NCBI GenBank assembly: GCA_002898795.1
Contig: BEIG01000007.1
Coordinates: 1-51,568 of the forward strand
Direction: 5' to 3'
Source of the DNA: a bacterium HR30
GTDB taxonomy: Bacteria; Desulfobacterota; Binatia; HRBIN30
DNA: 51,568 nucleotides
A program made the position numbers and the translations under genes. Shown in pieces: positions 15,144-34,677 of this stretch; position 1 is the first letter of the stretch; each line of letters begins with the position of its first letter. The notes below the pieces were generated by a model, which was given only the letters and a program-made list of their open reading frames with translations, had not been told where the DNA came from and did not search any database.

Positions 15144-15162
15144 CAAGCCATCCTCTGTCCGT

Positions 15163-18100
15163 ATGTTTGAGCGCATTGTCGATTTGTCCCTTCGCAACCG
15201 CGGCGCCGTGCTGTTTTTCACGGTGGTGGTCGCCCTGGCAGGGTGGCGGGCGTTCCGGGCTCTGACGATCGAGACATTCCCCGATCCGTCCGACACGCAA
15301 GTCAATGTCATCACACTTTTTCCTGGGCAACCGGCAGAAGAAGTGGAACGACAAATCAGTTTGCCCATCGAACGAGCGCTCAATGGCACGCCCGGATTGA
15401 CCCGCTTGCGAAGCATGTCCTTGTTTGGGTTGTCGTACGTGACCCTTACCTTCGACGACGGATTCGACGTACTGTTCGCGAGAGCACAAACCCTAGAACG
15501 GCTGCGTGGGGCTGACCTTCCCGAAGGTGTTGTACCAGAACTCGGTGCGCTCGCTACGCCGATTGGTGAGGTGTACCGGTACACCCTGGAAGGTGCCGGC
15601 GGTGATCCGATGCGACTGCGAACCATCCAGGATTGGGTGGTGCGGCCGAGGCTGCTCCGAGTGGCTGGAGTTGCCGACGTGGTTTCGTACGGTGGCCTCG
15701 TGCGGGAAATCCATGTGCAACCAGTGCCTGCACGACTCGCGGGCTACGAACTCACGTTAGAACAGTTGGAAAGTGCACTCCGCAAAAGCAGCGTGAATGC
15801 CAGTGGCGGCATACTGGAGCACGGGGCGGAGCAGTTCGTCATTCGTAGCCAGGGCTTGTTTCGCAGCCTGCAGGATGTTGCTGCGGTGCACGTTTCCAGC
15901 AGAGACGGTAGCCCAGTGCGGGTGGGTGATGTAGCGACAGTTCGCGACGGGTGGACGCCGCGACAAGGCGTGGTGAGCCGCGGAGAAGAATATGACGTCG
16001 TCCAGGGAATTGTCCTCATGCGGCGCGGAGAAAATCCGTCGGTGGTGTTGAGCCGGATCCGCCACGCCGTCCAAGAGCTCAATGGCAGCGGCTTGCCCGA
16101 CGGGGTGCGTATCAAGCCTTTTTATGATCGAACGGATCTGGTCAACGCAACATTGCGCACCGTAGGCCGCAATTTGCTCGAAGGGGCCACGCTGGTAACC
16201 GTGGTGCTTTTTGTTTTCCTGCTGGATTTGCGCGCCGCGGCGATTGTGGCTTCTGTGATCCCGCTTTCGCTCCTGAGTGCCTTCATTTACCTCCATGCTC
16301 GTGGCATGAGTGCCAACCTGCTCAGTATGGGGGCGATCGACTTCGGAATCATCGTGGACGGAGCGGTGGTGATTGTGGAAAGTATCGTGCTCCACCTTCA
16401 TGCAAAGACGAGGAGCGCTACCGCTCCCGATAACGCCACACTGAACGAGAGCATTCGTGCCGCCGTGAGCTCGGTCGTGCGCCCGACTGTGTTTGCCTTG
16501 CTCATTATCATTGCGGCGTATCTTCCGATCTTTTTGTTGGAACGAGTGGAAGGGCGTATTTTTGCGCCAATGGCCAACACCGTTGTGGCTGCGTTGGTTG
16601 GAGCTTTGCTGTTTTCCATCACGCTGGTACCGGTGTTGGCCACCGTCTTGTACCGCCGCCGCGTCGTCCATCGCGAATCTCCTGTACTGCGTTGGGCGGA
16701 ATACGCCTATCGGCCGGCTCTGGGTTTTGCGCTGCGCTGGCCTTGGTTGGTCCTGACATCGTCGCTGCTGGCGCTAGTGCTGGCTCTCTCCTTGCTCTGG
16801 CGAATGGGCTCGGAATTTTTGCCGGAACTGAACGAGGGCTCTTTGTACCTGACCTTTACCCTGCCGCCGAACACGAGTTTGAATGAAGGGCGTCGCATGG
16901 TGCCGAAGGTGACCGCGCTGTTGCGCGAACAGCCAGAAGTACAGGAGATTCTTACGCAGTTGGGGCGGCCCGAGGATGGCACCGATCCGAAGCTAGCCAA
17001 CAATTTGGAGGTGTTTCTCTTGTTGAAACCGCCTGAGAAGTGGCGTCCACAGATCCGTGGCTTGAGCGACTTGATCGAAGATATTCGTGCCCGGCTCGTC
17101 GAGATTCCGGGTGTGGAGGTCAATTTCTCGCAGCCCATTCGCGACAACGTGAACGAGTCGATCTCTGGGCAGAAGGGGCAGGTGGCATTGAAGCTGTTTG
17201 GGGACGATTTGACTCAATTGCAGCAAATAGCCGAACGGATAAAAGCGGTACTCGCGAAAGTGCCCGGCGTGGCCGATCTTGGTTTGGTGCTGAGCAGCGA
17301 GATCCCGCAAATCAAGGTGGAGCCAGACCGCGACGCTTTGGGACGGTACGGCCTCGACATGGAGGACTTTCAACACATTCTGCACGCCGCAATGGGTGGG
17401 CAACGTGTGGGTGTTTTCTGGGACGGTGAGGCGAAGTTCGATATAGTCCTACGATATCCGCGGGCAGCACGGGCGGACATCGAAAAAATCCGAAATTTGC
17501 AGGTGCCGGTGCAGGGCGGGGTGACCGTTCCCTTGGAGATGTTGGCAAAAGTTACCGTGAGTCGGGGTAGGGCGGCGATCACGCGGGAAAATGGCCGCCG
17601 GTACATTGGCATCCGGATGAACGTCAGCGGCCGGGATCTGGGTAGTTTCGTGGCCGAGGCACGGCAGCGGGTGGACAGTGCTGTAAAACTCCCACCAGGG
17701 GTTACAGCGGAGTGGGGAGGCGAGTTCGAAAGCAAAGAGCGGGCAATGGCTCGGTTGTTCACTGTTGTCCCCGTGGCTCTGGTGTTGACGTTGGTGCTGC
17801 TGTTTCAGTCGTTCCAGCGCTTCGGTCCGGCGGTCCTGGTTCTTCTGAATACGCCGTTCGCCTTGGTGGGCGGCGTGCTGGCGCTTTGGGTCGCAGGCAT
17901 GCCCTTGTCCGTATCTGCTGCGGTTGGATTCATCGCCCTCATCGGGCAGGCATCGTTAAACGGGGTGTTGGTGTTATCGCGCGTGGAGGAAAAACGCCGT
18001 GAGGGGGAGTCTCTGGATGCAGCTATTTTGTCCGGATGCATGGAGCGGTTGCGTCCCGTCTTGATGACCGCATCGTTGGCGGCGCTGGGGCTCGTTCCCG

Positions 18101-18249
18101 CTGCTCTGAGTCACTCGATTGGCAGCGAGGTCCAGCGCCCGGTGGCAGTCGTGATCGTCGGTGGCACGGTCAGCGCCTGCCTTCTTACCCTGGTTGTTTT
18201 GCCTGCACTGTATCGGGTGACCGCTCGCCAGTTGGGTGAGGTTGCGTGA
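15163..18249 (+). CDS. CusA/CzcA-family heavy-metal efflux RND pump
   Basis: A 1028-residue proton-driven RND transporter. The N-terminal first helix is followed by a large periplasmic domain, then the helix-4 signature DFGIIVDGAVVIVE (near residue 392) that separates heavy-metal pumps from drug pumps. Domain duplication (two sets of six helices, two large loops) and length match CzcA/CusA. With the two preceding genes it forms a complete tripartite system; the exported ion (Co/Zn/Cd, Ni or Cu/Ag) cannot be fixed by eye. Its TGA overlaps the next gene's ATG (TGATG). Confidence 0.93.
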   Translation: MFERIVDLSLRNRGAVLFFTVVVALAGWRAFRALTIETFPDPSDTQVNVITLFPGQPAEEVERQISLPIERALNGTPGLTRLRSMSLFGLSYVTLTFDDGFDVLFARAQTLERLRGADLPEGVVPELGALATPIGEVYRYTLEGAGGDPMRLRTIQDWVVRPRLLRVAGVADVVSYGGLVREIHVQPVPARLAGYELTLEQLESALRKSSVNASGGILEHGAEQFVIRSQGLFRSLQDVAAVHVSSRDGSPVRVGDVATVRDGWTPRQGVVSRGEEYDVVQGIVLMRRGENPSVVLSRIRHAVQELNGSGLPDGVRIKPFYDRTDLVNATLRTVGRNLLEGATLVTVVLFVFLLDLRAAAIVASVIPLSLLSAFIYLHARGMSANLLSMGAIDFGIIVDGAVVIVESIVLHLHAKTRSATAPDNATLNESIRAAVSSVVRPTVFALLIIIAAYLPIFLLERVEGRIFAPMANTVVAALVGALLFSITLVPVLATVLYRRRVVHRESPVLRWAEYAYRPALGFALRWPWLVLTSSLLALVLALSLLWRMGSEFLPELNEGSLYLTFTLPPNTSLNEGRRMVPKVTALLREQPEVQEILTQLGRPEDGTDPKLANNLEVFLLLKPPEKWRPQIRGLSDLIEDIRARLVEIPGVEVNFSQPIRDNVNESISGQKGQVALKLFGDDLTQLQQIAERIKAVLAKVPGVADLGLVLSSEIPQIKVEPDRDALGRYGLDMEDFQHILHAAMGGQRVGVFWDGEAKFDIVLRYPRAARADIEKIRNLQVPVQGGVTVPLEMLAKVTVSRGRAAITRENGRRYIGIRMNVSGRDLGSFVAEARQRVDSAVKLPPGVTAEWGGEFESKERAMARLFTVVPVALVLTLVLLFQSFQRFGPAVLVLLNTPFALVGGVLALWVAGMPLSVSAAVGFIALIGQASLNGVLVLSRVEEKRREGESLDAAILSGCMERLRPVLMTASLAALGLVPAALSHSIGSEVQRPVAVVIVGGTVSACLLTLVVLPALYRVTARQLGEVA

Positions 18250-19340
18250 TGGAAGGTGCGCTGAAATGCGGAGACAGTTCGACCAGGCGTTCTCCACACT
18301 CCGAGAGTGCAAGTACGCCCGGGAACTTCGACGGATCTGGGGTTGGCGTTTTGTCGCCGAGCCTTATGCACGAAGGGCCCGCACGAAACGACGCACCGTT
18401 CCACGATTCGCCGGATCTCTCGGTGATTGTGCCTGTTTACAACGAGGCTGACAACTTACCATTCCTCCACGAGCGCCTAACCCGAACGCTCGTAAGCTGC
18501 GGGCGCTCTTACGAAATCTGTTATGTCGATGATGGCAGCACCGACGGTTCGCTCCGCTGGCTTCTCCGCTGTGCGTCGCACGACCACCATGTTCGAGTGG
18601 TCGAGCTCAAGGCCAATGTGGGACAACATGCCGCAGTCATGGCGGGTTTCGCGGTGGCCCGTGGAGAAGTTGTCGTTACACTAGATGCGGACTTGCAAAA
18701 CCCGCCGGAAGAGATACCGCGGCTACTCGGTACGTTGGATCGCGGTTTCGATGTCGTGGCCGGCCGGCGAGGGACGCGCAACGATCCTTGGAGCCGGGTG
18801 GTGGCCTCGGTAGGGGCGAATCAGCTGGTCCGGCTCATGACGGGCACCTCTCTGACCGACCACGGCTGCATGCTGCGGGCTTACCGGCGAGGTGTGGTCG
18901 ATGCAGTCCTGGGGCGCAACGACCTGCGGGCGTTCGTCCCTGTGCTGGCAAACGCCGTGGCGCGGAGAACGACAGAAGTTCCGGTAGCTCATGCCCCCCG
19001 CTGGCGAGGGGAGTCGAAGTATTCTGCGCTCGGATTGGTACGCCTTCTGTGCGCGTTGTTTGTGAGTACGTTGCCTCTTGCGGTGCGGCGGTTGCGCTGG
19101 TGCGGTGCGGTGGCAATGCTGAGTGGTGTGGCCGTGGCCGGTGTGATTGCTCTTCGCCCGGTCGCCGCAGCGGGCGACGTTAGCGGATGGGTCAAGTGGT
19201 GCGGATCTGCCTTGATCTATGGCGGGCTTTTGCTCGTCTCGTTGTCTTTTTTGCTTTCGCTTGGATCTCGGGTTCGTACGCAAGGGAAGCGTAAGCCCGC
19301 CGACCTGATTCGTGCCGTGCACCAGTGGGCCCTCGAATGA
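18249..19340 (+). CDS. arnC: ArnC-like undecaprenyl-phosphate aminosugar transferase (GT2)
   Basis: A GT2 enzyme that loads a sugar on undecaprenyl phosphate on the cytoplasmic face. The core begins at SVIVPVYNEAD and shows DDGSTDGS, VGQHAAVMAGF, LDADLQNPPEEIPRL, DHGCMLRAYRR and GESKYS, a near textbook ArnC series; two C-terminal membrane helices follow. The N-terminus is about 40 residues longer than usual if the ATG at 18249 is used; an ATG at 18366 would give the normal length. I chose 18249 because it overlaps the pump's stop codon. ArnC normally transfers 4-formamido-arabinose for lipid A modification. Confidence 0.88.
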   Translation: MEGALKCGDSSTRRSPHSESASTPGNFDGSGVGVLSPSLMHEGPARNDAPFHDSPDLSVIVPVYNEADNLPFLHERLTRTLVSCGRSYEICYVDDGSTDGSLRWLLRCASHDHHVRVVELKANVGQHAAVMAGFAVARGEVVVTLDADLQNPPEEIPRLLGTLDRGFDVVAGRRGTRNDPWSRVVASVGANQLVRLMTGTSLTDHGCMLRAYRRGVVDAVLGRNDLRAFVPVLANAVARRTTEVPVAHAPRWRGESKYSALGLVRLLCALFVSTLPLAVRRLRWCGAVAMLSGVAVAGVIALRPVAAAGDVSGWVKWCGSALIYGGLLLVSLSFLLSLGSRVRTQGKRKPADLIRAVHQWALE

Positions 19341-19346
19341 ACCGTG

Positions 19347-20270
19347 ATGCGTAGTGTCGTCTTTGCCTATCACGATATTGGGTACGTTTGTTTGGAAGAG
19401 CTCGTGCGGTTGGGCAGCGAGGTCTCGTTGGTGATTACTCACGAGGATGATCCCACAGAAAATATTTGGTTCCGCTCGGTCGCAAAGCTCGCTGGCCGGC
19501 TTGGGCTTCCGGTGTTTGCGCCAGTGGACGTCAATACCCCTGCCTGGATCGAGCGTGTGGCCAGTTGTCGCCCCAACTTCTTGTTTTCTTTTTACTACCG
19601 AAAGTTGCTGCGGCGGGACTTCTTGGAAATCCCTACGCACGGGGCACTGAATCTGCACGGATCGTTACTGCCGCGTTACCGTGGTCGATGCCCTGTGAAC
19701 TGGGTCATTATTCACGACGAAAAAGAGACGGGCGTCACTCTTCACTACATGACAGAGAAACCGGACGCGGGCGATATCGTCGCTCAGCGAGCTGTACCGA
19801 TCGATGATACGGATACGGCTCTCTCCGTCTACGGCAAGCTCACAGAGATTGCACCGGTTGTTTTGCGGGAGGTGTACCCGTTACTGTGCGCGGGGAAAGC
19901 GCCTCGCATTCCGCAGAATCACGGGCAAGCAACGTACTTTGGTGGGCGTCGCCCCGAGGATGGACGGATCGATTGGCGACGTTCGGCGCGGGAAGTGTTC
20001 AACTTGGTGCGCGCAGTCACGCGCCCTTACCCGGGGGCCTTTGCCGTTTGGCGTGGGAAGGAACTGAAGGTGTGGAGAGCGTCGATTGCTGCGTGTTCTC
20101 AAAGCAGCGGCTTGCCAGGTGTGGTATTGCAAGCAACGCCGACCTTGATGGTGCAGTGCGGGTGCGGTGCTGTCGTGTTGGAGGAGGTGCAATTTGATTC
20201 TGCCATGCCCTGTCCCGGAAGCGTTTGGGCCAGCCGACATGGGATCGATGTGGGAGACCAACTGCAATGA
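19347..20270 (+). CDS. arnA: ArnA-type formyltransferase (separate N-terminal ArnA domain)
   Basis: A 307-residue methionyl-tRNA-formyltransferase-like enzyme closely resembling the N-terminal half of ArnA. FAYHDIG at the start, FSFYYR, and the catalytic set N102, H104 (LNLHGSLLP) and D140 (PDAGDIV) fall at the same positions as in E. coli ArnA. In ArnA this domain N-formylates UDP-4-amino-arabinose with 10-formyltetrahydrofolate. The ATG at 19347 is preferred over a GTG three bases earlier. Here the domain is a stand-alone gene; the decarboxylase half follows with an ATGA overlap. Confidence 0.9.
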   Translation: MRSVVFAYHDIGYVCLEELVRLGSEVSLVITHEDDPTENIWFRSVAKLAGRLGLPVFAPVDVNTPAWIERVASCRPNFLFSFYYRKLLRRDFLEIPTHGALNLHGSLLPRYRGRCPVNWVIIHDEKETGVTLHYMTEKPDAGDIVAQRAVPIDDTDTALSVYGKLTEIAPVVLREVYPLLCAGKAPRIPQNHGQATYFGGRRPEDGRIDWRRSAREVFNLVRAVTRPYPGAFAVWRGKELKVWRASIAACSQSSGLPGVVLQATPTLMVQCGCGAVVLEEVQFDSAMPCPGSVWASRHGIDVGDQLQ

Positions 20271-21265
20271 GAGTGCTGATTACGGGTGGTGCGGGATTCG
20301 TCGGGTCGCATTTGGCCGAAGCATTTTTACAGAGAGGCGACGAGGTGACGGTGCTCGATGCAGGTACGGACCATAAAGTGTGCCACCTGCTGGCCCAGCC
20401 CCGATTTCGTTTCGTGCGAGGTAGTGTGCTGGACAACAAGGTGCTGGATTGGCTCGTGGGTGAAGCGGATTTGATTTACCACCTAGCGGCTGTGGTTGGT
20501 GTGGAACACTACGTTTCCAATCCTCTGAAGGTTCTGCAGGTGAATGTCAACGGAACCCAAAACGTACTCCGGGCAGCTTTCGGTCACGGATGCAAGGTGG
20601 TTTTCGGCTCGACTTCCGAGGTGTACGGCCGTAACGGCCGCGTCCCTTGGGGCGAGGATGATGACCGGGTGCTGGGCTCGACGCGGGTGGACCGTTGGTG
20701 TTACGCGACGTCGAAAGCCGTTGGGGAACACTTTTGTTTTGCCTACCACCGGTTGGGCTTGCCGGTAACCGTTTTGCGATTTTTCAACGTTTACGGTCCT
20801 CGGCTGGACTCACTCTGCAGTGGCCGGGTCGTATCGGTTTTCTTAGGTCAGGCCTTGCGTCAGGAGCCAATCACGGTGACCGGAGACGGAACTCAGACCC
20901 GCTGCTTTACCTACATTGCCGATTGTATTCGTGCGACGGTAGCGGCCGGCGTGCAAACGGGAACCGAGGGGGAAATCTTCAACATCGGTACGGACGTGGA
21001 GACGAAAATTGTTGACCTTGCGCGTTTGATCGTGAAGCTGACCGGCTCCTGCTCGGAAATCCGATTCGTGTCCCATGCCGAGCTGTACGGATCCCGTTAC
21101 GAGGATGTTCCACGCCGTGTTCCCGATGTGTCGAAGATGCGGAAGATCCTGAGGGTCGAGGCCATGACTCCTCTGGCAGAGGGTTTGCGGCACACGATCG
21201 CATGGTTCCGAGCACAGGGTGTAGAGCAAACTGGCGCCGCCGTAGGCTATGCGTTTGGGTCTTAA
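20267..21265 (+). CDS. arnA: NAD-dependent UDP-glucuronate decarboxylase/epimerase (ArnA C-terminal-like)
   Basis: A 332-residue extended SDR. The NAD motif GGAGFVGS is at 7-14; S115-T116-S117-E118 in GSTSEVYG, Y146-x3-K150 and R212 in TRCFTY match the catalytic positions E434, Y463, K467 and R619 of the ArnA decarboxylase. The YGPRLDS segment also resembles ArnA. The likely reaction is oxidation of UDP-glucuronate at C4 and decarboxylation to the 4-keto-pentose; a plain nucleotide-sugar epimerase/dehydratase is possible. It overlaps its neighbours on both sides (4 and 17 bases). Confidence 0.85.
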   Translation: MRVLITGGAGFVGSHLAEAFLQRGDEVTVLDAGTDHKVCHLLAQPRFRFVRGSVLDNKVLDWLVGEADLIYHLAAVVGVEHYVSNPLKVLQVNVNGTQNVLRAAFGHGCKVVFGSTSEVYGRNGRVPWGEDDDRVLGSTRVDRWCYATSKAVGEHFCFAYHRLGLPVTVLRFFNVYGPRLDSLCSGRVVSVFLGQALRQEPITVTGDGTQTRCFTYIADCIRATVAAGVQTGTEGEIFNIGTDVETKIVDLARLIVKLTGSCSEIRFVSHAELYGSRYEDVPRRVPDVSKMRKILRVEAMTPLAEGLRHTIAWFRAQGVEQTGAAVGYAFGS

Positions 21266-22139
21266 AGTCGACGTCTGCACTTACGCGGGAATGCGGGCCG
21301 GGGTGCCAAATCTCCTGCGTTTGTTCGACCGTCTGAACATTCGAGCGAGTTTCTTTGTGGCTGTAGGGCCCGACCACTCGGGCCGTGCCCTTCGGCGTGT
21401 GTTCCGCTCGGGATTTCTGGAAAAAATGTGGCGCACGCGTGCCGTGAAGACCTACGGCTGGCGAACTTTGCTTTACGGCACAGTGCTGCCTGCGCCCCAT
21501 GTCGGAAGGCGTTGTGCCGGGCTTCTCCGAGAGATTGTGGCGGCGGGTCACGAACTGGCGGTGCACGGATACGACCATGTACGCTGGCAGGACCGTTTAC
21601 CGAACCTCACCCACGAGGAAATTTCTGCCGAGCTTCGCCGAGCGTGGGATGTCGTGAGCAGCGCTACGGGTACCATCGTTCGAGCTTTTGGGGCGCCAGG
21701 CTGGCAGTGCACGAAAACTAGCTTGTGGTGCGAGGAGAGCCTCGGGCTTCTTTATCGGAGTGATACACGTGGACGTTGCCCTTACTACATCGTGACGAAT
21801 GGGGAGGTGTTGCCGACTCTGGAAATCCCGACCACGCTACTAACATTGGATGAAACATGGGGCGTCATCAGCCACGATGAAAATCGGCTCTGCCGTTGGT
21901 ACGTGCGCCAGTTGCAACCCGACGTTAACGTGTACACGGCGCACGCGGAGATGGAGGGGCGTGACTACGGCGGTTTTTTGCGCTCGCTGCTAGAAGCCGC
22001 CCTTGCCGAAGGGGTCCAGGTCGGGCGTTTGGATCAATGGGTCGGCGATTACTCGGCCGCTCCTCGGTGCCGCCTGCGAATTGGTACCGTGCCAGGGCGG
22101 GCAGGTACGGTGGCTTTGCAAGGAGAGCCCGTTGACTGA
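21249..22139 (+). CDS. arnD: ArnD-like polysaccharide deacetylase family deformylase
   Basis: A 296-residue NodB-fold hydrolase very close to ArnD: VGPD-x2-GR, the KMWRT...YGW block, H105-x4-H110 in VHGYDH, and H232 in YTAHAEMEG. ArnD removes the formyl group from undecaprenyl-phosphate 4-formamido-arabinose. The first catalytic aspartate (D8) is kept, but the second acidic residue of the usual DVD motif is a cysteine (C10). The start overlaps the decarboxylase gene by 17 bases, and an AAGGAGAG site inside its end serves the next gene. Confidence 0.88.
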   Translation: MRLGLKVDVCTYAGMRAGVPNLLRLFDRLNIRASFFVAVGPDHSGRALRRVFRSGFLEKMWRTRAVKTYGWRTLLYGTVLPAPHVGRRCAGLLREIVAAGHELAVHGYDHVRWQDRLPNLTHEEISAELRRAWDVVSSATGTIVRAFGAPGWQCTKTSLWCEESLGLLYRSDTRGRCPYYIVTNGEVLPTLEIPTTLLTLDETWGVISHDENRLCRWYVRQLQPDVNVYTAHAEMEGRDYGGFLRSLLEAALAEGVQVGRLDQWVGDYSAAPRCRLRIGTVPGRAGTVALQGEPVD

Positions 22140-23841
22140 GGCAGCTCCTGTACTGAGTCGGTCGCCGGCACCGCACATGGCTTGGCGCAGTCGTGTGAGC
22201 TCGCCTTGGGTCGCGTGGGTTTGCTTGGCCGTGGGAGCAACCACCGCGTTTTTCTCTACTTTGAACGCAAGCCCTCTCATCGAGCCCGACGAGCCAAGGT
22301 ATGCGGAGATCGCCCGCGAGATGATCGTGCGGGCAGATTGGGTGACGCCCACGCTGAATTTCGTCAAATATTTCGAGAAGCCCCCGTTGGTGTACTGGCT
22401 CGTGGCCACGAACCTGATGTTGTTCGGCCAACACGAATGGGCTGTGCGGCTGTGGTCGGCTCTGTTCGGCTTGCTCGGAGTTGCGTGCACGGGCTTGATC
22501 GCTGCAAGGATGTTCAACCCGAGGACGGGCCTTTTGTCCGCCGCGATTTTGGCCACCATGCCGCTGTACTTTGGTTTAAGCCAGGTCGTAAGTCCGGATA
22601 TGCCCCTGGCTGCTTTGTGTACGGCCTGTCTAACTTTGGCATGGTTGAGCTTTTCCCGTTGGCCAGCGCGCTCGCCGGTGCTGGCTTCGTTGTTTTGGAG
22701 CTCGTTGGCGCTTGGCATCCTAGCGAAGGGTCCGGTGGCGCTGGTGCTTGTCTGGGGTGTCATCGCGGCGTACTCGCTTTTTTCACGGAGGTGGGACGTT
22801 TGGCGTACTTTGTTCTGGGGCCCGGCATTACTGCTCTTCGTCGTCGTTGCTGCCCCGTGGTTTGTCCTCGTCGGTTGGCGTAACCCTGAGTTCCTGCCGT
22901 TCTTTTTCGTGGAGCAACACGTGGTACGATATCTTGACCCGTGGGAGCACCGGCAGAACTTTTGGTTTTACCTCCCAATTTTGTTACTCGGCACGTTTCC
23001 GTGGTGGCTGGTGGGCCTGATGAAAGCGTGGCGTCTAGGTGCTTTGGGGCAAGCGGGAGCTTACAGGGCGAGTGCAGAATCGATTTTTTTGTACGCCTGG
23101 TTCGGGGTCGTGTTTTTGTTTTTTTCCGCGTCTGGCTCGAAACTCGGGACCTACATTTTGCCGGCGTTGCCTCCGCTTGCGATCTTGTTCGCGCGTGTCA
23201 TGGGTGTTGGCGCCGGTGGAGTGGACCGTGAAATGTACCAAGCAACGGCGGTGGCCTCGGTAGCGATCGGGTTAGCAATGTTCGCCGCCGCCCGGCTGGC
23301 GCCTGTGCTGTCGAGCCATCATCGCGCGCAGCTCCTGCCGCCGGCGCTTGCCCTCGGTGCATTCGTGTGCATCACGGGCGGAGGGCTACTTTGGATGGCA
23401 GCGCGTCGCTTCCAGAGGTGGCCATGGTTACCCCTTGTTACGTTGCTCGCATTTTTGTGGCTTCTCGAGACGGTTACGTTCGCGAACCGTTCCATCGCCG
23501 AGCACTACACGCCCTTGGCTGTAGCCATTCGAGAACACTGGCAGCCGGAAGATCGGATCGTTTTGTACCGCCACTACACCCAGGGGATTCCATATTACAC
23601 GGGCCAGCGGGTGATTGTGGTGGGCTCTTGGGGCGAGCTCGATTTTGGCCGCCGTCAAGAAAACCATTCGGACTACTTTTGGCCAGATGACGAACGGCTC
23701 GTCGGAGAGTGGGCCTCAGGGAAGAGGATGTTCCTCGTTTTGAATCGCTCAGATTTCGGGAGGCTAGCGCCTAGCTTGCGTCCTCCCCCGCGTGAGTTGG
23801 CTCGATTTCGGAAAAAACTGGTTGTGACGAACTTCGAATGA
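22132..23841 (+). CDS. arnT: ArnT-like lipid A aminosugar transferase (GT83, GT-C fold)
   Basis: A 569-residue integral membrane GT-C glycosyltransferase. The first periplasmic loop carries D53-E54 in EPDEPRYAEIAREM, and a little further on a KYFEKPPLVYW segment, both diagnostic of ArnT-type enzymes. About 11-13 membrane helices precede a short soluble C-terminal domain. ArnT moves 4-amino-arabinose from undecaprenyl phosphate to lipid A on the periplasmic side. The TTG at 22132 has an AAGGAGAG site six bases upstream; an ATG at 22177 is the alternative. The next gene starts in the ATGA overlap. Confidence 0.87.
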   Translation: MTEAAPVLSRSPAPHMAWRSRVSSPWVAWVCLAVGATTAFFSTLNASPLIEPDEPRYAEIAREMIVRADWVTPTLNFVKYFEKPPLVYWLVATNLMLFGQHEWAVRLWSALFGLLGVACTGLIAARMFNPRTGLLSAAILATMPLYFGLSQVVSPDMPLAALCTACLTLAWLSFSRWPARSPVLASLFWSSLALGILAKGPVALVLVWGVIAAYSLFSRRWDVWRTLFWGPALLLFVVVAAPWFVLVGWRNPEFLPFFFVEQHVVRYLDPWEHRQNFWFYLPILLLGTFPWWLVGLMKAWRLGALGQAGAYRASAESIFLYAWFGVVFLFFSASGSKLGTYILPALPPLAILFARVMGVGAGGVDREMYQATAVASVAIGLAMFAAARLAPVLSSHHRAQLLPPALALGAFVCITGGGLLWMAARRFQRWPWLPLVTLLAFLWLLETVTFANRSIAEHYTPLAVAIREHWQPEDRIVLYRHYTQGIPYYTGQRVIVVGSWGELDFGRRQENHSDYFWPDDERLVGEWASGKRMFLVLNRSDFGRLAPSLRPPPRELARFRKKLVVTNFE

Positions 23842-25652
23842 CTTCAGAGTCTGCTGGTAGCGGAGAGAGCAGAGAGCATTTGGTGGCTACGCCCGAACCG
23901 TCGATACGACCGGCAGATTCCGGCTGGCCGATTCGGCGATGGGTCGAGTTGGGGCTCGCACTGGTTATCGTCACAGCAATGTGGTGGCCCCTGACTTGGT
24001 GGCGGCTCGGGGCAGCGCCGTTTCACACCAAGGGTGAGCCACGGGAAGCACTCGTGGTCTGGGAGATGACTCACGGAGGCGGTTGGATTTTGCCCCGGCG
24101 CAACGGCACAGAGATTCCTTCGAAGCCCCCCATGTTTCACTGGCTGGGGGCATTGGCGAGCTGGGTATCCGGTCGGACGGATGAAGGCACCGTGCGGATG
24201 CCTTCAGCTTTGGCTTCGCTGCTGGGTTTATATGGCGTGGTGTTGGCCGGCAGCGCTTGGTGGTCGGTCAGGGCAGGAATGTTCTCTGCCTTCGTGCTGG
24301 CGACGTCGTTCGAATGGACTCGTGCCGCGACCAATGCGCGAGTGGACATGGTACTTACACTCGGCTTGGAAGCCAGCCTGCTAGCGCTTCTTTTCTTTTG
24401 GCGCAGCCGCAAGGTGGTTTGGTTGGCTGTGCTATACCCGGCAATGGCTTGGGCTGTACTGGCGAAGGGTCCGGTGGGAGTTGCCCTTCCGGCTCTGGTG
24501 ACGATCGGATTGTTAGCGACAACCTGGAATGCCAACGCGTTTCACACCGGGCACTGGCGAGAGGTAGTGGACTGGCCAGCATTGCGAGAGTTGCGTCCGC
24601 TGCGCGGATTGGCATTCGTCGCTGCCGTGGCGGGGGCATGGTATGTGGCGGCACTGTACGAAGGGGGTTGGGCATTTTTCCGCAAGCAGATTCTGGCGGA
24701 AAATATTTTCACCTTCGTGCACGACCCTGACTGGGGCGGCGGACACCGGCACGGATTGTTGTATCTTCCGGTCCAATGGTTCTTGGGCTCTCTGCCTTGG
24801 TCGCTGCTGTGGCCGGTCGTTGCCCTGGATGTTTGGCGGCGCCGGCGGATGCTTGGCCGAAGCGACCCATTGGTCGGACTCATGATTTGGATTGCGGTCG
24901 TGTTCTTGTTTTACGAGTTTGCCGCGAGCAAGCGAGGCGTTTATTTGCTCGCGCTCTACCCGGCGGTAGCACTGTTCTGTGGATGGTGGTGGTCGGAGCT
25001 CTCCGACCTTGAACCCAGTTGGGGGGAGAGATGGCGTACCGTCTTGGCTTACGGGGCCCACGCTTTCAGTGCGGTGCTCGCAGCGGCATTGGCAGGCTTG
25101 GGTGCGGTCAAACTCGGGTTAAGTCTGGGCTGGATCGAGCTGAGCGGAGGTGCGTCGGAGGCGTGGAGGCTGCTTTTGGGTGTTGCGCAAAGGGCTGTTT
25201 CTGGGGCTACGCTGATCAGTGGCGTCGGCTGTATCGTCTTGTGGTGGTGGACTGGTCGGGCACTGCAAGAACAAAAGTGGAGGCGGTCGCTACTCTTGGT
25301 ATTTTTCGCGACCTGGACTGTGGCCGTAACAGTGCGCTCTTGGTGGTTACCAGCGTTTGCGCAGCAAGTGACGTTGCGCGACTTTATGGCGGCGGTGCGT
25401 GCCGCGAGCGGCAGCGAACCGGTTTACTTTTGGGGCATATTTGATTACCAAGCGGTGTACTACTTTTACGGACACATCCCCTTGCTGGGTGCGGATGGCT
25501 TAGAATCCGCTCCAGCATTTTTGTTGGTGGATCGGGAAGCATGGGTCAATCCGGCGAGCAAACTGAGAACACTGTATGAAGAGGTGCCACTGAACTTGGC
25601 TCATGGGGAAGCTCGGCGGCGACTCGTGTTGCTGAGGCGCAAGGCATCCTGA
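23838..25652 (+). CDS. Second ArnT-like GT-C membrane glycosyltransferase
   Basis: A 604-residue multi-pass glycosyltransferase of the PMT/ArnT superfamily. An extra cytoplasmic leader (about 1-35) precedes the first helix. The periplasmic loop has TKGEPREALVVWEM with E67, followed by IPSKPPMFHW; the aspartate of the DE pair in its neighbour is a glycine here, which puts it in a related but distinct subfamily. It probably transfers a polyprenyl-linked sugar to lipid A or a core/surface acceptor. ATG overlaps the preceding stop codon. Confidence 0.82.
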   Translation: MTSESAGSGESREHLVATPEPSIRPADSGWPIRRWVELGLALVIVTAMWWPLTWWRLGAAPFHTKGEPREALVVWEMTHGGGWILPRRNGTEIPSKPPMFHWLGALASWVSGRTDEGTVRMPSALASLLGLYGVVLAGSAWWSVRAGMFSAFVLATSFEWTRAATNARVDMVLTLGLEASLLALLFFWRSRKVVWLAVLYPAMAWAVLAKGPVGVALPALVTIGLLATTWNANAFHTGHWREVVDWPALRELRPLRGLAFVAAVAGAWYVAALYEGGWAFFRKQILAENIFTFVHDPDWGGGHRHGLLYLPVQWFLGSLPWSLLWPVVALDVWRRRRMLGRSDPLVGLMIWIAVVFLFYEFAASKRGVYLLALYPAVALFCGWWWSELSDLEPSWGERWRTVLAYGAHAFSAVLAAALAGLGAVKLGLSLGWIELSGGASEAWRLLLGVAQRAVSGATLISGVGCIVLWWWTGRALQEQKWRRSLLLVFFATWTVAVTVRSWWLPAFAQQVTLRDFMAAVRAASGSEPVYFWGIFDYQAVYYFYGHIPLLGADGLESAPAFLLVDREAWVNPASKLRTLYEEVPLNLAHGEARRRLVLLRRKAS

Positions 25653-25692
25653 GGAAGGCGTGGCTCGGACCACGGTGTGCGGAGGTTCATAG

Positions 25693-26808
25693 ATGGCCGG
25701 CTCTGTACAAGTGCCGTTGTTAGACCTGAAGCGAGAATACGAACTCATCCGCGAAGAGCTCCATGCGGAATGGGGGCGGGTGTTCGAGCGCATGCATTTG
25801 CTCAAGGGGGAGAATACCCTTGCGTTCGAGCGGGAAATCGCCCGTTATGTCGGCACCGCTCACGCGGTGGGGGTGGCCTCGGGTACCGACGCGTTGTTGT
25901 TAGCGATGCGTGCTTTGGGGATCGGGCCGGGAGACGAGGTCGTGTTGCACGCGAACGCGTTTGTCGCAGCCCTGGAAGCGGTGCACCACAATGGCGCGAC
26001 ACCCGTGCTCGTGGACGTGGCTGCGGAAGACTTTGGTCCGGACCCCGCTCAAGTTGCTCATGCAGTCAGTGAGCGCACAAAAGCTATCGTGGTGGTGCAT
26101 CTTTACGGTTTTCCGGTTCCTCTCGATCCGATTGTCCAGCTTTGCAGCAAGCAGGGGATTGCGCTCATCGAAGATTGCTCGCATGCCCATGGTGCTCGCT
26201 GGAACGGGCAGCACGTGGGAAGCTTTGGCCGGGTGGGATGTTTTAGCGCGGGTGTCGTGAAAAATTTAGCTGCCTACGGTGATGCGGGGTTTGTGACCAC
26301 GAACGAAGCCTCTCTCGCGGAGAAAGTACGGCTGTTGCAAGCCCACGGCCAAGCGCGAAAGAACGAACATCAGCTGTACGGATTCAACAGCCGTTTAGAT
26401 GAATTGCAGGCGGCCGTATTACGAGTGAAACTGCGTTACTTGGACAAGCGCAATGCTCGGCGAAGGGCGATTGCAGCGTTTTACCGGGAACGCTTCGCTG
26501 GGCTGCCCGTTACCCTACCCGCGGAGTCTGAGCATAGCGTGTGTGTGTACCACCAGTTTGTCTTGCGAACGGAACACCGTGATGCCCTGCAAAGCCACCT
26601 CAAGAACGCGGGGGTTGACACTGGGATTCACTACCCGGTTCCTTTGCACCGTCAACCGGCTTGGCAGGCGCACTACTTTGGGAAATACTCCTTCCCGCGG
26701 GCCGAGCGGTATGCAGCCGAGCTTTTGTCGATTCCTGTGTTTCCGGAGCTTTCGGATGCCGAGGTAGAACACGTTGCTTCGGCCGTACGTGGTTTTTTCC
26801 TCCGATGA
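25693..26808 (+). CDS. DegT/DnrJ/EryC1/StrS sugar aminotransferase
   Basis: A 371-residue PLP-dependent aminotransferase of nucleotide sugars. SGTDAL at 63-68 binds the phosphate, D161 in IEDCSHAHGA contacts the pyridine nitrogen, and K190 in GVVKNLAAYGDAG is the Schiff-base lysine. These motifs are closer to the GnnB/WbpE/QdtB type (3-amino sugars) than to ArnB, which has an SATAG motif and KNITCAEGG. Still, it is the only aminotransferase in the cluster and may fill the ArnB role. A Gfo/Idh/MocA gene two positions away is the common partner for 3-amination. Confidence 0.9.
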   Translation: MAGSVQVPLLDLKREYELIREELHAEWGRVFERMHLLKGENTLAFEREIARYVGTAHAVGVASGTDALLLAMRALGIGPGDEVVLHANAFVAALEAVHHNGATPVLVDVAAEDFGPDPAQVAHAVSERTKAIVVVHLYGFPVPLDPIVQLCSKQGIALIEDCSHAHGARWNGQHVGSFGRVGCFSAGVVKNLAAYGDAGFVTTNEASLAEKVRLLQAHGQARKNEHQLYGFNSRLDELQAAVLRVKLRYLDKRNARRRAIAAFYRERFAGLPVTLPAESEHSVCVYHQFVLRTEHRDALQSHLKNAGVDTGIHYPVPLHRQPAWQAHYFGKYSFPRAERYAAELLSIPVFPELSDAEVEHVASAVRGFFLR

Positions 26809-26820
26809 AGAAAAGGGGAA

Positions 26821-27762
26821 GTGCTTCCTGAAGTCTCCGTCGTTGTTCCGGTTTTCAATGAAAAGGGAAACGCCGGCCCCCTGGCACGAGAGATCGACGC
26901 GGCGGTGCGGGCACTGGGCCTCGGTTATGAGATCATTTTTGTGAACGACGGCAGTAGCGATGGGACGCTGGAAGAGCTGCTCGACGCGCTGTCAGCCATT
27001 CCTTCGTTGCGCATCCTCGACTTGGATGGCAATTTCGGTGAGGCGGCGGCCTTGACGGCGGGCTTCCAGGCTGCTCGGGGCCGGGTCATTGTTACGCTCG
27101 ATGGCGATGGTCAAAACGACCCCGCGGACATCCTTAAACTCTGGCAGCGGTTCCAGCAAGGTTTTGTGGTGGTTTCCGGTTGGCGGCAGCGCCGTCAAGA
27201 AGGCTTTTGGGTGCGAGTTTTGCCATCGCGTGTGGCGAACTGGCTGATCGCTCGCGTGACGGGCGTTCCGCTGCACGACAATGGGTGCGGGCTCAAGATT
27301 TACAGGGCGGAAGCGGCAAAGCGGGTGCACCTGCCAAAGGGCTTCAACCGTTTTTTGCCGGCTATTTTGGGTGTCCGAGCCAATGAAGTTGCGGAGGTGC
27401 CTGTACGCGATCGCCGACGCCAACATGGCGCATCGCATTACGGTTTGAACCGTACGCTCATCGTCATGCGAGATTTGTTGGCCGTGCCTTTTTTGCTTTC
27501 GAACCCGCGCCTGTTCGAGGCCGTTTGGAAGTGGTTGGGGCTGGCTGGAGTTGTGGCGGCCATCATGTTGGGGGTCGGCGGAAACTTGGCTGGTGGATCG
27601 GCGGCAGCATTCTTTTCTCTGCTCGCGTACGCTGTTTGGTGGAACTTGAGGAGGTTTAACCAGGCGCAACGCATCGGGGTTTATCGTTTACGGCGCGAGT
27701 TCAGCCGACTGGTCGAGGGAGGCGTGTTTGTCCGCCAACGCCAGCGAGTCGGGGAGCGCTGA
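26821..27762 (+). CDS. Polyprenyl-phosphate glycosyltransferase (GT2, DPM/ArnC type)
   Basis: A 313-residue GT2 enzyme with a GTG start behind a GAAAAGGGGAA site. SVVVPVFNEKGN, DGSSDGT, LDGDGQNDPADI and DNGCGLKIYR define the GT-A core; a C-terminal pair of membrane helices follows (about 240-285). It is distinct from the ArnC at 18249 (GEAAALTAGF instead of GQHAAVMAGF, DGDGQN instead of DADLQN), so the cluster appears to load two different sugars on the lipid carrier, matching its two ArnT-like transferases. Confidence 0.87.
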   Translation: MLPEVSVVVPVFNEKGNAGPLAREIDAAVRALGLGYEIIFVNDGSSDGTLEELLDALSAIPSLRILDLDGNFGEAAALTAGFQAARGRVIVTLDGDGQNDPADILKLWQRFQQGFVVVSGWRQRRQEGFWVRVLPSRVANWLIARVTGVPLHDNGCGLKIYRAEAAKRVHLPKGFNRFLPAILGVRANEVAEVPVRDRRRQHGASHYGLNRTLIVMRDLLAVPFLLSNPRLFEAVWKWLGLAGVVAAIMLGVGGNLAGGSAAAFFSLLAYAVWWNLRRFNQAQRIGVYRLRREFSRLVEGGVFVRQRQRVGER

Positions 27763-28730
27763 TGGAAACAATTCGCGTCGGGCTCGTGGGTGCCGGCTAC
27801 TGGGGAAAGAATTTGCTGCGCTTGTTCCGGGCGCGAACGGATGTCGTGGTGTGTGCCGTAGCCGACGTGGACCAGGACGCCGCAACGAGGGTTGCGGGAG
27901 ACCTGCCCGTAGCCCCGGATCTCGAAACGTTGATTCGCCATTACCACCCGGATGCGGTAGCCATCGTTACACCCCCGTCGACGCACTATGAACTGGCGCG
28001 TTACGCTCTGATGCATGGGAAGCATTGTTGGGTAGAGAAACCGCTCGCTCTACGTGCCCGCGAGGCAAGAGAGCTCGTTTCCCTTGCGGAGGAGCATGGC
28101 TGTCAGCTTTTCGTCGACGAGACCTTTCTCTACGACCCTCTGGTCCAAACAGCCCGAGATTGGATCCATGGTGGTAGGCTCGGCCAAGTGTATCATCTTT
28201 CGTTTGAACGTTTGGGGCAGGGCCGCATCCGCCGCGATTCCAATGTTTGGTGGAACTCGGCCCCACACGATCTCTCGATTTTATGTTACTGGATCGATGC
28301 ACCAGTGCGCCACGTGCAAGTGAACTCTTTCAGTTACTTGCAGCCGGGAGTGGCGGATGTGGCGATTGGTACGCTCCTCCTGGAGCAAGACATTTCGGCG
28401 CACGTGTATCTGAGCTGGATGGCGCCCCAAAAGGTGGCGACGGCAACGGTTGTGGGAAGTGAGGGTATGCTCGTGTTCGAGGGGCGATTTGGTCAGCGCA
28501 AGCTCGATTTTTATGAGTTTCGTGTCGCCCGAAAAGAGTCCGCTTCGGGTAACGTGATTCCGGTTGAACGATTTAACTGTACAGAGTCCGTACGCGGGGG
28601 AGAGGAGGAGCCGTTAGCCTTGGCGGTCGAGGCATTCGTTGGTGCGGTGCGAACCGGTGTTCTCCCGCCGAGTGCTGGTGTGTTTTCGCAGCGAGTCGTC
28701 GAAATCCTCGAGCAGGGGTTACCCTACTGA
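27762..28730 (+). CDS. Gfo/Idh/MocA family oxidoreductase
   Basis: A 322-residue NAD(P)-dependent dehydrogenase. The Rossmann motif GAGYWGKN is at 11-18, the catalytic-lysine motif EKPLAL (WVEKP) lies near residue 93, and VDETFLYDP marks the second domain. Its ATG overlaps the GT2 stop (TGATG). In nucleotide-sugar loci such enzymes (GnnA, WbpB, WlbA) oxidise C3 of a UDP-N-acetylhexosamine for a DegT aminotransferase. That role is inferred from context and not proven by a specific residue. Confidence 0.88.
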   Translation: METIRVGLVGAGYWGKNLLRLFRARTDVVVCAVADVDQDAATRVAGDLPVAPDLETLIRHYHPDAVAIVTPPSTHYELARYALMHGKHCWVEKPLALRAREARELVSLAEEHGCQLFVDETFLYDPLVQTARDWIHGGRLGQVYHLSFERLGQGRIRRDSNVWWNSAPHDLSILCYWIDAPVRHVQVNSFSYLQPGVADVAIGTLLLEQDISAHVYLSWMAPQKVATATVVGSEGMLVFEGRFGQRKLDFYEFRVARKESASGNVIPVERFNCTESVRGGEEEPLALAVEAFVGAVRTGVLPPSAGVFSQRVVEILEQGLPY

Positions 28731-28798: not shown

Positions 28799-29212
28799 AT
28801 GGCAAAAATCTTGGTAGTCGAGGATGATCCGGATATCATGCGCATCATGACGCACACCCTTCGTGCAGCGGGGCACGTAGTCATCCCTGCGTATGGCGGC
28901 GAAGACGCTTTGCGCAAGGTCAAGCAGCACCACCCCGACTTAGTCCTCACGGACTTGGCAATGCCGAAGATGACCGGTGTGGAAATTATCCAGCAGATTA
29001 AGCGCGACGAGGCAACCAAAACGATCCCGTGCCTAGCGGTAACAGCTCACGTGTGGGAGTTTTTAGCCCACTCCGCTGGCGACGCAGGATGTGACGGGTA
29101 CCTGGCGAAGCCCTTCACGAACCGGCAGTTGGTGGAGTTCGTCAACAAGTACTTGTCTGCCTCTAGTGGAGTCGACACGGCTGGAGGGAAGAACCGGTCA
29201 GTGATTGGTTGA
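28799..29212 (+). CDS. Single-domain response regulator (CheY-like)
   Basis: A 137-residue receiver domain with no output domain. Acidic pocket E8-D9-D10, phosphoacceptor D52, T82 and K104 are all in place. The last 15 residues are a low-complexity tail. There is no histidine kinase in the window. It follows the sugar cluster and precedes the pilin region; single receivers of this kind (PilG/PilH-like) often control type IV pili or motility, but the sequence does not show this link directly. Confidence 0.92.
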   Translation: MAKILVVEDDPDIMRIMTHTLRAAGHVVIPAYGGEDALRKVKQHHPDLVLTDLAMPKMTGVEIIQQIKRDEATKTIPCLAVTAHVWEFLAHSAGDAGCDGYLAKPFTNRQLVEFVNKYLSASSGVDTAGGKNRSVIG

Positions 29213-30825: not shown

Positions 30826-30864
30826 AAAAGTGGGTCGGGCCTTCGGGCTCGGCCCACTTTTTTT
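30826..30864 (+). terminator. Intrinsic terminator after the pilin gene
   Basis: A 15-base-pair stem (30827-30841 with 30846-30860, two G-T pairs) capped by a TTCG tetraloop and followed by a T-run to 30864. This is the strongest terminator in the window and separates the pilin from the large glycosyltransferase gene. Confidence 0.92.
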
Positions 30865-30961
30865 ATCTGCCAAATTGTCACAACAGCTCGAGCCGGGCCT
30901 AGGCTGCGACCTGGTGACATACTGTTGTTCGGAAACCGAAGTTCGCTTATGTATCGCGGCC

Positions 30962-33529
30962 ATGGCAGGCGCAGCCGTGAGAGGCTTGGTGTCGTCCCCG
31001 TGGGTCCGGTTCCTGGTAGCATTATTAGGGTTAGCGGTGGCTCTGTGGGGGCGATTCCTGATCCCCAGTCCGGCGTTGGAACGGCTCGGCACTTGGCTAC
31101 TGGTGCTGGGGTGTGTTGCCGCTGCCATCGTCATCGGTGCACCAGCAGCACCCAGTAGCGGGCAACTGGCTACAGAGGCTGGCCCAACGCGGGGGCGGAT
31201 TCCCGTCTTATTGGCGTCCCTGCTCTTAGTAGCCGGTTTCGCAGCCTTCGGTTACGCTAGTTGGTCGCTGATCGTTGCGTGGCGCGCTAACTTCGATTGG
31301 GCGGCGCCGCTCATGGTCGGCGCGGTTGCCCTAGCAACGACTGGGCTCGCGATACTGGACCGTAAGTGGCGGCAGCCTTTGGTTCGGGTTCCAACGAGCA
31401 AACTGGAACTTTTTCTTGTTCTGGTTGTGCTCGCGTGCGGCACTTTCCTTCGCTTCTACCGTATCGATTATTTCCCGCCAACCGATGGATTCGTCGCGAT
31501 CGAGGAGCCACAATCAGGCCAGGGGGCCTGGGCCATCATGGCGGAGGGCGTGAGACCCTGGGAGTTTTTGCTCGACCGTTGGCTGGCGGTGCCGTTTTTC
31601 CATTGGGTTGGAATCTCCATCCTCGCGCTGCGCATTCCTTTTGTGATTGTAAGTTGCCTTACGTTGCTCGCAACCTACATCTTGGCGCGAGAAGTAGTGC
31701 GGTGGCCAGCAGCTCTGTTAGCGACCGCGCTGCTGGCGGTATCGCACTGGCACCTGCATTATGCGCGCCTCGCGCACAACATATTCCCAACGACCTTGCT
31801 GAGCGTCGTGGTTTGGTGGCTTTGTATCCGGCAAGCTCGAACGGGGGGGCTCCGTTTGTACCCGTGGATTGGGTTTTGGAGCGGGTACTCTCTCTATGCC
31901 TACGCAGGGTATCGTGGAATTCCTATTGTGGTTGGAGTGTTCCTCTTCGGGTACACGCTGTACCTTTGGTGGCATCGTAACGACGCCCCAACGCTGCGGC
32001 AAACATGGCGGCTTCATTTGGCGGGGCTTCTCTTGTTCGTTCTGTTCTTCTCTGGGCCCGTTGCGGCCTTGGTCAACCAATTACGGTCGGACCCATCTTA
32101 TTTTCTAGAGGCGTTTTACCGGTCATACGCAAACAAGCAGTATTACGTTTCCGACTGGCCCACTTGGCTCAGGTTGCGGTGGGAACGAATTCTGGAAACC
32201 TCGCGGATTTTTCACCACGTGGGTGACAGGGAACAAGCTTACAATCTTCCCGGGGAGCCCATGCTCGATCCCGTCTCCGGGGTATTGTTCACGACCGCTC
32301 TCGTCTTTTGCCTGGTTTACCCGCGACACCGGTTTCAAGGGTTTTTCGCGTTCGCCTTTCTCTTTCTCCTGCTGGCCGGGGCACTCCTGACGCAGACGCT
32401 CGTGGTGGCGCGGCTACAGATCGTCGTCCCACTCGTGTTCGTTTTGGTGGCATTGTGGGCGGATCGAATGTGGGAGTTGTCCGGCAGCGTGGGACGTCAA
32501 TGGGTGAGAAGCCTCTGGGGGGCATGTACTGTGGCAGCTGTTGTGGCGGCGGCCGTGCTCAACTGGAACGTTTACTTTGGCAAGATGATCCACAGTCCGG
32601 TAATGCGTGCGGTGTACCGAAATTACTACACGACTGCGATTACCTTCCTGCATTCTTTGCCGGACAATGCTTACGCACTGCTCCTGTCGGATATGCGGAA
32701 TTTGTTCATCCCGAACGATTACGCTTGGTGGCGTGGAAATCGGGTACCAGGGGAGGTCACGATTGACATCTACCCATTGTTAACTGGGGCCAAGGCCCCG
32801 TGGGAGGGACGCTTTCTGCACCTCCTCATCCAACGTCCGTTCGAGCAACAAGAGATAGCCGAGTTGGTACGCTGGCTTTACCCCGAAGCCACATGCGAAT
32901 GGATCCGGCATCCAGAAGGCTACCCGCACTTGGATCAAATTGCTTGCACGATCGGCAGGGATGTGCGACCGAAACCCGCCCGCTTCACCTTGCGTGCACG
33001 TTATTTCCGCCCGAACAAGCAGGAGCCTTTTTTGGAGCGTGCCGAACCTGCGTTGAGTTGGGCCTTGTTTCCGGAAGCTTGTTCTCGGTGGCATCAACCC
33101 GAGCGGGCAGACTGTATCGTAGAGTGGGACGGAACCTTTGTGCTGCAAGGAGACAGTCGCCACGAGCTAGCCGTGGAGGCTCGCAACGCTCATGTAGAAG
33201 GTGACGTAGACGGTCGCGAGTTCACGACAGACCGTTCTGTTCCGATCGAGGGCTACGTGCTCGGAGGGGAGATGCGGGCAGCGCGGCTCGTGCTCGACCC
33301 CGGAACGCACCGCATCCGGGTTCGCGCTCGCCCGTTGGGGAACGAAGGGGACCCAGGGGTGCGCTTGCGGCGAAAGGATCCAGTGGGTGGTTGGCAGCTC
33401 GTAACCTTCCTCGAGTCCGAGCAGGACTTGCCAAGTGCTGGGGAGTTGCAGGGCAAGAGCTCGGCTACTGTGGAAAAAGCAAAGCACAGCTCGGGAGAAC
33501 TGGCCGCAGGCGGACCCGTCGAACCATGA
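30962..33529 (+). CDS. GT-C (GT39-like) membrane glycosyltransferase with C-terminal beta domain
   Basis: An 855-residue protein. Roughly a dozen membrane helices (to about 540) carry the GT-C layout: a first helix ending LRFYRIDYFPP, then an acidic loop with AIEEPQSGQGAW. A soluble, extracytoplasmic part follows; residues about 670-820 (ARYFRP..., IVEWDGTFVL..., LDPGTHRIRVRARP) resemble a PA14/carbohydrate-binding beta sandwich. It should move a sugar from a lipid carrier to a surface acceptor. ATG 30962 lies beyond the terminator; an in-frame GTG at 30914 is possible. An ACAACAG/CTGTTGT repeat (30880-30928) sits in the short upstream gap. It overlaps the sulfotransferase start (ATGA). Confidence 0.78.
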   Translation: MAGAAVRGLVSSPWVRFLVALLGLAVALWGRFLIPSPALERLGTWLLVLGCVAAAIVIGAPAAPSSGQLATEAGPTRGRIPVLLASLLLVAGFAAFGYASWSLIVAWRANFDWAAPLMVGAVALATTGLAILDRKWRQPLVRVPTSKLELFLVLVVLACGTFLRFYRIDYFPPTDGFVAIEEPQSGQGAWAIMAEGVRPWEFLLDRWLAVPFFHWVGISILALRIPFVIVSCLTLLATYILAREVVRWPAALLATALLAVSHWHLHYARLAHNIFPTTLLSVVVWWLCIRQARTGGLRLYPWIGFWSGYSLYAYAGYRGIPIVVGVFLFGYTLYLWWHRNDAPTLRQTWRLHLAGLLLFVLFFSGPVAALVNQLRSDPSYFLEAFYRSYANKQYYVSDWPTWLRLRWERILETSRIFHHVGDREQAYNLPGEPMLDPVSGVLFTTALVFCLVYPRHRFQGFFAFAFLFLLLAGALLTQTLVVARLQIVVPLVFVLVALWADRMWELSGSVGRQWVRSLWGACTVAAVVAAAVLNWNVYFGKMIHSPVMRAVYRNYYTTAITFLHSLPDNAYALLLSDMRNLFIPNDYAWWRGNRVPGEVTIDIYPLLTGAKAPWEGRFLHLLIQRPFEQQEIAELVRWLYPEATCEWIRHPEGYPHLDQIACTIGRDVRPKPARFTLRARYFRPNKQEPFLERAEPALSWALFPEACSRWHQPERADCIVEWDGTFVLQGDSRHELAVEARNAHVEGDVDGREFTTDRSVPIEGYVLGGEMRAARLVLDPGTHRIRVRARPLGNEGDPGVRLRRKDPVGGWQLVTFLESEQDLPSAGELQGKSSATVEKAKHSSGELAAGGPVEP

Positions 33530-34584: not shown

Positions 34585-34677
34585 AAGTGGATGCAAGAAG
34601 AGGCCCGCAGTCCGCGAGCACTAGGGGACTAAAACAACTCGAGCGGCCCCCGCGTAGCGGTCAGGTGAGCTGAGAGG

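Follow-up and report, generated by a model that had tools for sequence, protein, structure and literature searches.

Two adjacent envelope-modification gene modules, one of split-ArnA aminoarabinose type and one for a putative 3-amino sugar, in an uncultured Binatota bacterium

A contig of bacterium HR30 (BEIG01000007.1, from assembly GCA_002898795.1), an uncultured member of the phylum Binatota, raises the question of whether a sugar aminotransferase has replaced ArnB in a pathway for 4-amino-4-deoxy-L-arabinose (Ara4N) or serves a second pathway next to it. In the window (the whole stretch of 51,568 nucleotides analysed; the genome totals 3.73 Mb over 211 contigs at 95.8% completeness), nine plus-strand genes form one row at 18246-28730, where neighbours either overlap slightly or are at most 40 bases apart. 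According to Pfam and NCBIfam they encode an ArnC-like family 2 glycosyltransferase (GT2), a formyltransferase, a decarboxylase of the short-chain dehydrogenase/reductase (SDR) superfamily, ArnD, ArnT, an ArnT-like enzyme, a DegT aminotransferase, a second GT2 and a Gfo/Idh dehydrogenase; an earlier note made from the letters alone had read the same nine genes at this place, and its list is borne out. Comparison with 98 genomes splits the row into arn-type genes (module B) followed by the ArnT-like, DegT, second GT2 and Gfo/Idh genes (module A). The best explanation, and probably the right one, is that two envelope pathways of the Arn kind lie side by side, a reading built on gene content, gene order, kept catalytic residues, the independent occurrence of the modules and the position of the aminotransferase in trees, with the substrates, acceptors and activities of all the enzymes predicted.

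Two modifications are favoured because the DegT protein (25693..26808, plus strand; PF01041) groups with the 3-aminotransferases DesV and QdtB and not with ArnB, and because the two modules occur independently. It scores 316 bits to DesV (structure 2oga, presumably DesV), 291 to QdtB, 235 to WbpE and 174 to ArnB, and is 32% identical to E. coli ArnB. In a tree of 74 rows, the module-A DegT proteins group with DesV, QdtB and 7b0d, split from ArnB and WecE with 100% support in the Shimodaira-Hasegawa-like approximate likelihood ratio test (SH-aLRT). Placement in a tree, as the earlier note had proposed, puts the protein on the 3-aminotransferase side. Of the two options in that note, the one in which DegT replaces ArnB at C4 is disfavoured by this position and by a genome (G005) with arn genes and neither such a DegT nor such a Gfo, while the other, two modifications made by one locus, is supported by genomes that hold the cassette and have no ArnD match, and by arn-type genes that elsewhere come with an ArnB of their own or lack the cassette.

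Module A (all plus strand) consists of ArnT2, an ArnT-like membrane glycosyltransferase (23838..25652; PF13231), the DegT-family aminotransferase, GT2b, the second ArnC-like GT2 (26821..27762; PRK10714, 142 bits; solved ArnC structures, 132-136 bits), and a Gfo/Idh/MocA sugar dehydrogenase, the presumed C3 oxidase (27762..28730; PF01408). Close relatives of the DegT protein (at least 49% identity) are present in 19 of the 98 genomes, that of the window included. GT2b and Gfo genes adjoin DegT in 18 of the 19 loci, in one of which (L051) Gfo is split in two; the nineteenth (L061, in G004) ends inside DegT, and the Gfo gene of that genome starts at G004:C263:1192, coordinates that match L178, where the end of DegT and GT2b come before Gfo. 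A PMT/ArnT-like gene lies beside the trio in 17 of the 19 loci, the other two (L057 and L058) being on short contigs. In a second genome collection, Gfo is at least 38% identical in 21 of 34 loci, 10 of them from genomes already among the 19, and the DegT, GT2b and Gfo genes come as a set in 19 of these 21 (the exceptions are L183, which starts within GT2b, and L185, where DegT gave no match); the remaining 13 loci are distant (29-34%) and have no GT2b match. DegT-GT2b-Gfo is thereby supported as a self-standing cassette, found in genomes of the class that have no ArnD match.

The Gfo motif VWWNSAPHD is invariant in all but one column across 17 aligned sequences, window included. The best NCBIfam model for Gfo, a dehydrogenase acting at position 3 of UDP-N-acetylglucosamine (UDP-GlcNAc 3-dehydrogenase), gives 115 bits against a cut-off of 450, so that a UDP-hexose as the substrate of module A is only a guess. 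In the route proposed for module A, Gfo/Idh would oxidise C3 of a nucleotide sugar, DegT would aminate it, GT2b would attach the resulting 3-amino sugar to polyprenyl phosphate, and ArnT2 would pass it on to an envelope acceptor. At three loci (L188, L193 and L203) the cassette has an added PF03706 (LPG_synthase_TM) membrane protein, possibly a lipid-linked sugar flippase. A YdjC-family gene adjoining module A in one genus (L054 and L055) was considered as a NaxD-type deacetylase and set aside; it is not used as cassette evidence because the L054 copy is HpnK (315 bits, cut-off 233) and YdjC genes are found in 70 of the 98 genomes.

Module B is, as predicted from sequence, a split-ArnA aminoarabinose (arn) pathway. 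Its genes, all on the plus strand, encode GT2a, an ArnC-like polyprenyl-phosphate sugar transferase (18246..19340, with a true start possibly near 18366; PRK10714, 242 bits; solved ArnC structures, 220-231 bits; 44% identical to E. coli ArnC over 252 residues), a formyltransferase equivalent to the N-terminal half of ArnA (19344..20270; PRK06988, 388 bits, over the cut-off of 316; 42% identical), an SDR equivalent to the C-terminal half, a UDP-glucuronate decarboxylase of UXS-like sequence (20267..21265; UXS1 200 bits and ArnA 135 bits among PDB structures; 30% identical), an ArnD-like deformylase (21249..22139; PRK15394, 206 bits; 35% identical), and ArnT1, an ArnT with the C-terminal domain (22177..23841; PF18583, Arnt_C; 31% identical over 309 residues). 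Only the formyltransferase exceeds its NCBIfam cut-off; the Arn-model matches of the ArnC-, decarboxylase-, ArnD- and ArnT-like proteins are well below theirs. The catalytic residues N102/H104/D140 of the E. coli formyltransferase, which the earlier note had named, are present as N103/H105/D141 (numbered from the GTG at 19344). For the decarboxylase, E118, Y146 and K150 of the note's four residues hold, together with S117, and its R212 gives way to R284, the equivalent of ArnA R619. All 31 formyltransferase rows and all 30 SDR rows, among them those of the window, keep the catalytic residues; a filter on coverage and score was applied to the rows, and some genomes are counted twice.

The two ArnT-type proteins differ in kind. 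ArnT1 aligns over nearly its whole length to the solved ArnT (5ezm, 190 bits, residues 12-552) and has the RYA and YFEKP motifs, which contain residues shown to be necessary in ArnT by a mutational study (PMC5377068). ArnT2 has altered first-loop motifs (KGEPRE and IPSKPP in place of RYA and YFEKP) and no Arnt_C match in Pfam, and only its first part aligns to 5ezm (43 bits, residues 29-400). The strict ArnT2 pattern is not universal, being missing in L047, L048 and several other module-A loci. ArnT1 proteins within the genus are 71% and 62% identical; those of other genomes were located with the ArnT1 of G005 as query.

In module B the decarboxylase would make UDP-4-keto-pentose, to which a 4-aminotransferase encoded elsewhere, presumably an unlinked ArnB-like enzyme at G000:C23 (the C23 enzyme), would add the amine; the formyltransferase would then protect the amine, GT2a would move the sugar to polyprenyl phosphate, the ArnD-like enzyme would remove the formyl group, and ArnT1 would transfer Ara4N to lipid A. 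LpxC and two UDP-sugar dehydrogenases are present in the genome.

ArnD relatives (E ≤ 1e-25) are found in 44 of the 98 genomes, in 34 of which the surroundings were inspected, the other ten being judged from coordinates alone. ArnC, formyltransferase, SDR and ArnD are all present in 28 of the 34 (an SDR match is missing in L088, L091, L099 and L160, L098 is truncated where its contig ends, and L090 shows ArnD alone). By coordinates, an ArnB-like gene lies within 10 kb of ArnD in 16 of the 44 genomes; in the other 28 (seven of group f1, two of f3, 14 of f12, two of f5, one of f6 and two of f9), some with contigs cut short, including both f9 genomes (G065 and G080) at contig ends, there is none within that distance. 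Unlinked or missing arnB is therefore common here, and its absence from a cluster does not alone mean a different sugar. Clusters with a linked ArnB number 17 (the 16 and that of G060), and because 14 of the 17 hold an SDR 61-69% identical to that of the window, the SDR is taken to perform the ArnA decarboxylase step in them. The ArnD-like gene of G008 (L072, G008:C5:76779-77660) has an in-frame TGA.

The modules assort separately across the genomes. An ArnD match is present in 10 of the 19 module-A genomes and missing at E ≤ 1e-25 in nine (G021, G034, G041, G054, G060, G064, G072, G074 and G079), of which G060 nonetheless has an arn cluster, truncated but including ArnB (L162). In G027, G047 and G087, arn genes with a linked ArnB are on contigs other than that of module A (in G087 without an SDR match). 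G005 (100% complete) keeps arn genes, ArnT1, ArnT2 and GT2b, and a module-A DegT (E ≤ 1e-100) and Gfo (E ≤ 1e-40) are both missing from its genome. G003 lacks the DegT-GT2b-Gfo trio but carries arn genes and an ArnT2. After GT2b in G005 come PriA-like and deformylase-like genes, so named from reading the sequences. The order to which the window belongs has 15 genomes, 11 with ArnD and seven with module A, all seven among the 11; DegT and Gfo of module-A type (Gfo at least 55% identical) are found in the same seven. Besides the window, five genomes (G001, G002, G004, G008 and G010) have both modules joined in a single row; G006 probably does too, its copies of both being at contig ends.

On the two-pathway reading, the ArnB step would require an enzyme from outside the row, which contains no ArnB, and no member of the ArnB clade was found in the window genome. 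In a tree of 84 rows (retaining five of the 18 from module A), one ArnB group (94%) holds all 17 linked ArnBs, L151 (G003), L165 (G080) and the ArnBs of E. coli and P. aeruginosa, and the nearest enzyme of the window genome, the C23 enzyme, belongs to a sister clade, forming with 15 orthologues a group of its own (98%) inside a wider one (88%) with all 14 f12 enzymes. Both trees are quick searches with SH-aLRT support only; support is 93-94% for the ArnB group and 82-91% at the forks between it and the exopolysaccharide-type group, which makes this split moderate. The aminotransferases G004 C190 and G006 C339, left out of the tree, score 338 and 298 bits to the window DegT versus 218 and 223 to the C23 enzyme. 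The C23 enzyme is 43% identical to E. coli ArnB and scores 394.6 bits on the NCBIfam ArnB model (cut-off 631), near the lowest linked ArnB scanned (398.9). That cut-off was dropped as a test for ArnB in favour of the tree, because five scanned linked ArnBs of the class reach only 399-474 bits (E. coli ArnB, 740). The window DegT and the C23 enzyme are the only proteins of the genome above 300 bits to the DegT family, and the missing step would most simply be done by the latter. The earlier note had named a canonical arnB elsewhere in the genome, together with a clear placement of the DegT/Gfo pair in an unrelated O-antigen pathway, as what would speak against its proposal; the outcome is halfway, with no canonical arnB found and only this ArnB-like enzyme in an exopolysaccharide-type cluster (Wzz, Wzy, phosphoglycosyl transferase and other sugar genes).

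Several observations weigh against two complete pathways side by side. Genomes that have no ArnD match (G007, G011, G013, G017 and G023) keep the C23 cluster as well, so that an Ara4N role for the aminotransferase of that cluster would be a second job. G005 keeps GT2b and ArnT2 without DegT or Gfo, and GT2b thus may not need a 3-amino sugar. Another genome listed as 100% complete, G015, has an arn-type cluster (L097) and no ArnB-like match at E ≤ 1e-60. Within the order, an ArnB-clade enzyme is found in none of the seven module-A genomes (one of the order's genomes, G004, is 85% complete) versus three of the four others that bear ArnD (G003, G009 and G012); these genomes are related and the exclusion represents few events, yet it fits replacement of ArnB, which for this reason keeps some probability. 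A cluster in G062 (L091), of the same genus as G015, has ArnB and no SDR match of that type.

The exclusion is also an argument for an unlikely alternative, a hybrid route in which the arn enzymes are supplied by Gfo and DegT: DegT would aminate C4 for ArnB, or a 3-amino-pentose made from UDP-xylose would be carried instead of Ara4N. In the second form UDP-xylose would come from the UXS-like decarboxylase and be converted by Gfo and DegT to a 3-amino-pentose, which would then pass through the formyltransferase, GT2a, ArnD and ArnT1. The lack of ArnB in the row, the greater likeness of the SDR to UXS1 than to ArnA, and the fusion of the modules also favour a hybrid. Against it, close relatives of the SDR stand in most clusters with a linked ArnB; DegT, Gfo and GT2b are together in the nine genomes without an ArnD match; and clusters with neither linked ArnB nor module A occur in G005 and in four of five inspected f12 contexts (the fifth, L090, is ArnD alone, and for the nine f12 genomes besides these five ArnD was the sole criterion). 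For the replacement form in particular, the absence of DegT and Gfo from the whole G005 genome is adverse. A slightly more doubtful proposal is that arn enzymes were re-tooled in this order, the UXS-like decarboxylase, Gfo and DegT making UDP-3-amino-3-deoxy-pentose for the route of formyl protection, polyprenyl loading, deformylation and ArnT transfer; if true, this would give a lipid A that bears a 3-amino isomer of Ara4N.

It is improbable that module A is a pair of GnnA/GnnB type, making the 2,3-diamino sugar nucleotide UDP-GlcNAc3N for a diamino lipid A backbone in place of a polyprenyl-linked sugar: the best model for Gfo and the scarcity of other DegT-family proteins in the genome agree with it, but in 18 of the 19 loci DegT and Gfo flank a polyprenyl-phosphate-type GT2, an ArnT-like gene accompanies the trio in 17, and no lpx gene was seen in the row. 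That an Ara4N pathway and an unrelated or decayed pair of O-antigen sugar genes lie together by chance is very improbable, for although DegT/Gfo pairs are common in O-antigen clusters and distant pairs at about 30% identity without a GT2b match exist, order and strand of the row are conserved in G001, G002, G008, G010 and, up to the contig end, G004, the key residues of DegT and Gfo are invariant, and the genes overlap or nearly touch.

Upstream of the two modules, on the same strand (12598-18249), is a set resembling a heavy-metal efflux system of the resistance-nodulation-division type (outer-membrane factor, adaptor and CusA-like pump, read by eye), whose pump reading frame overlaps GT2a by 4 bases; in G001 and G002, too, the pump has the arn genes as neighbours. 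A single-domain CheY-like response regulator just past Gfo/Idh (28799-29212) is kept in the same two genomes. Farther downstream (30830-47332), four very large GT39/PMT-like membrane proteins of 899-1113 residues, one on the minus strand and the last with NHL-like repeats, and a sulfotransferase-like gene (33490-34584) were recognised by eye.

Among the open papers of PubMed Central, none was found on Binatota with lipopolysaccharide and lipid A, none of six envelope terms occurs in the searched text of a study of Binatota genomes (PMC8262859), and no description of the cassette of ArnT-like glycosyltransferase, DegT, GT2 and Gfo/Idh appeared among the search results listed. Two cationic-sugar envelope modifications are predicted in an uncultured phylum, and the conserved cassette is proposed to serve a polyprenyl-linked 3-amino sugar. 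Module B resembles the arn (pmrHFIJKLM) pathway for Ara4N in its split-ArnA form in the order of ArnC, formyltransferase, decarboxylase, ArnD and ArnT and in their catalytic residues, and differs in the lack of arnB in the row, in scores mostly below the NCBIfam cut-offs, and in the second cassette that follows. Amino-sugar modification of lipid A is performed by FlmF2/NaxD/FlmK in Francisella and by Lgm in Bordetella, and module A shares their logic, pairing by homology a GT2 that acts on polyprenyl phosphate with an ArnT-like transferase; the row has no separate deacetylase beside module A, which in contrast adds a dehydrogenase and an aminotransferase and would therefore build its own 3-amino sugar. 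GnnA/GnnB and WbpB/WbpE are 3-amino-sugar enzymes of the Gfo/Idh and DegT types, a pairing that module A shares, its DegT protein grouping with DesV and QdtB; here, a polyprenyl-phosphate-type GT2 and an ArnT-like enzyme are conserved along with the pair.

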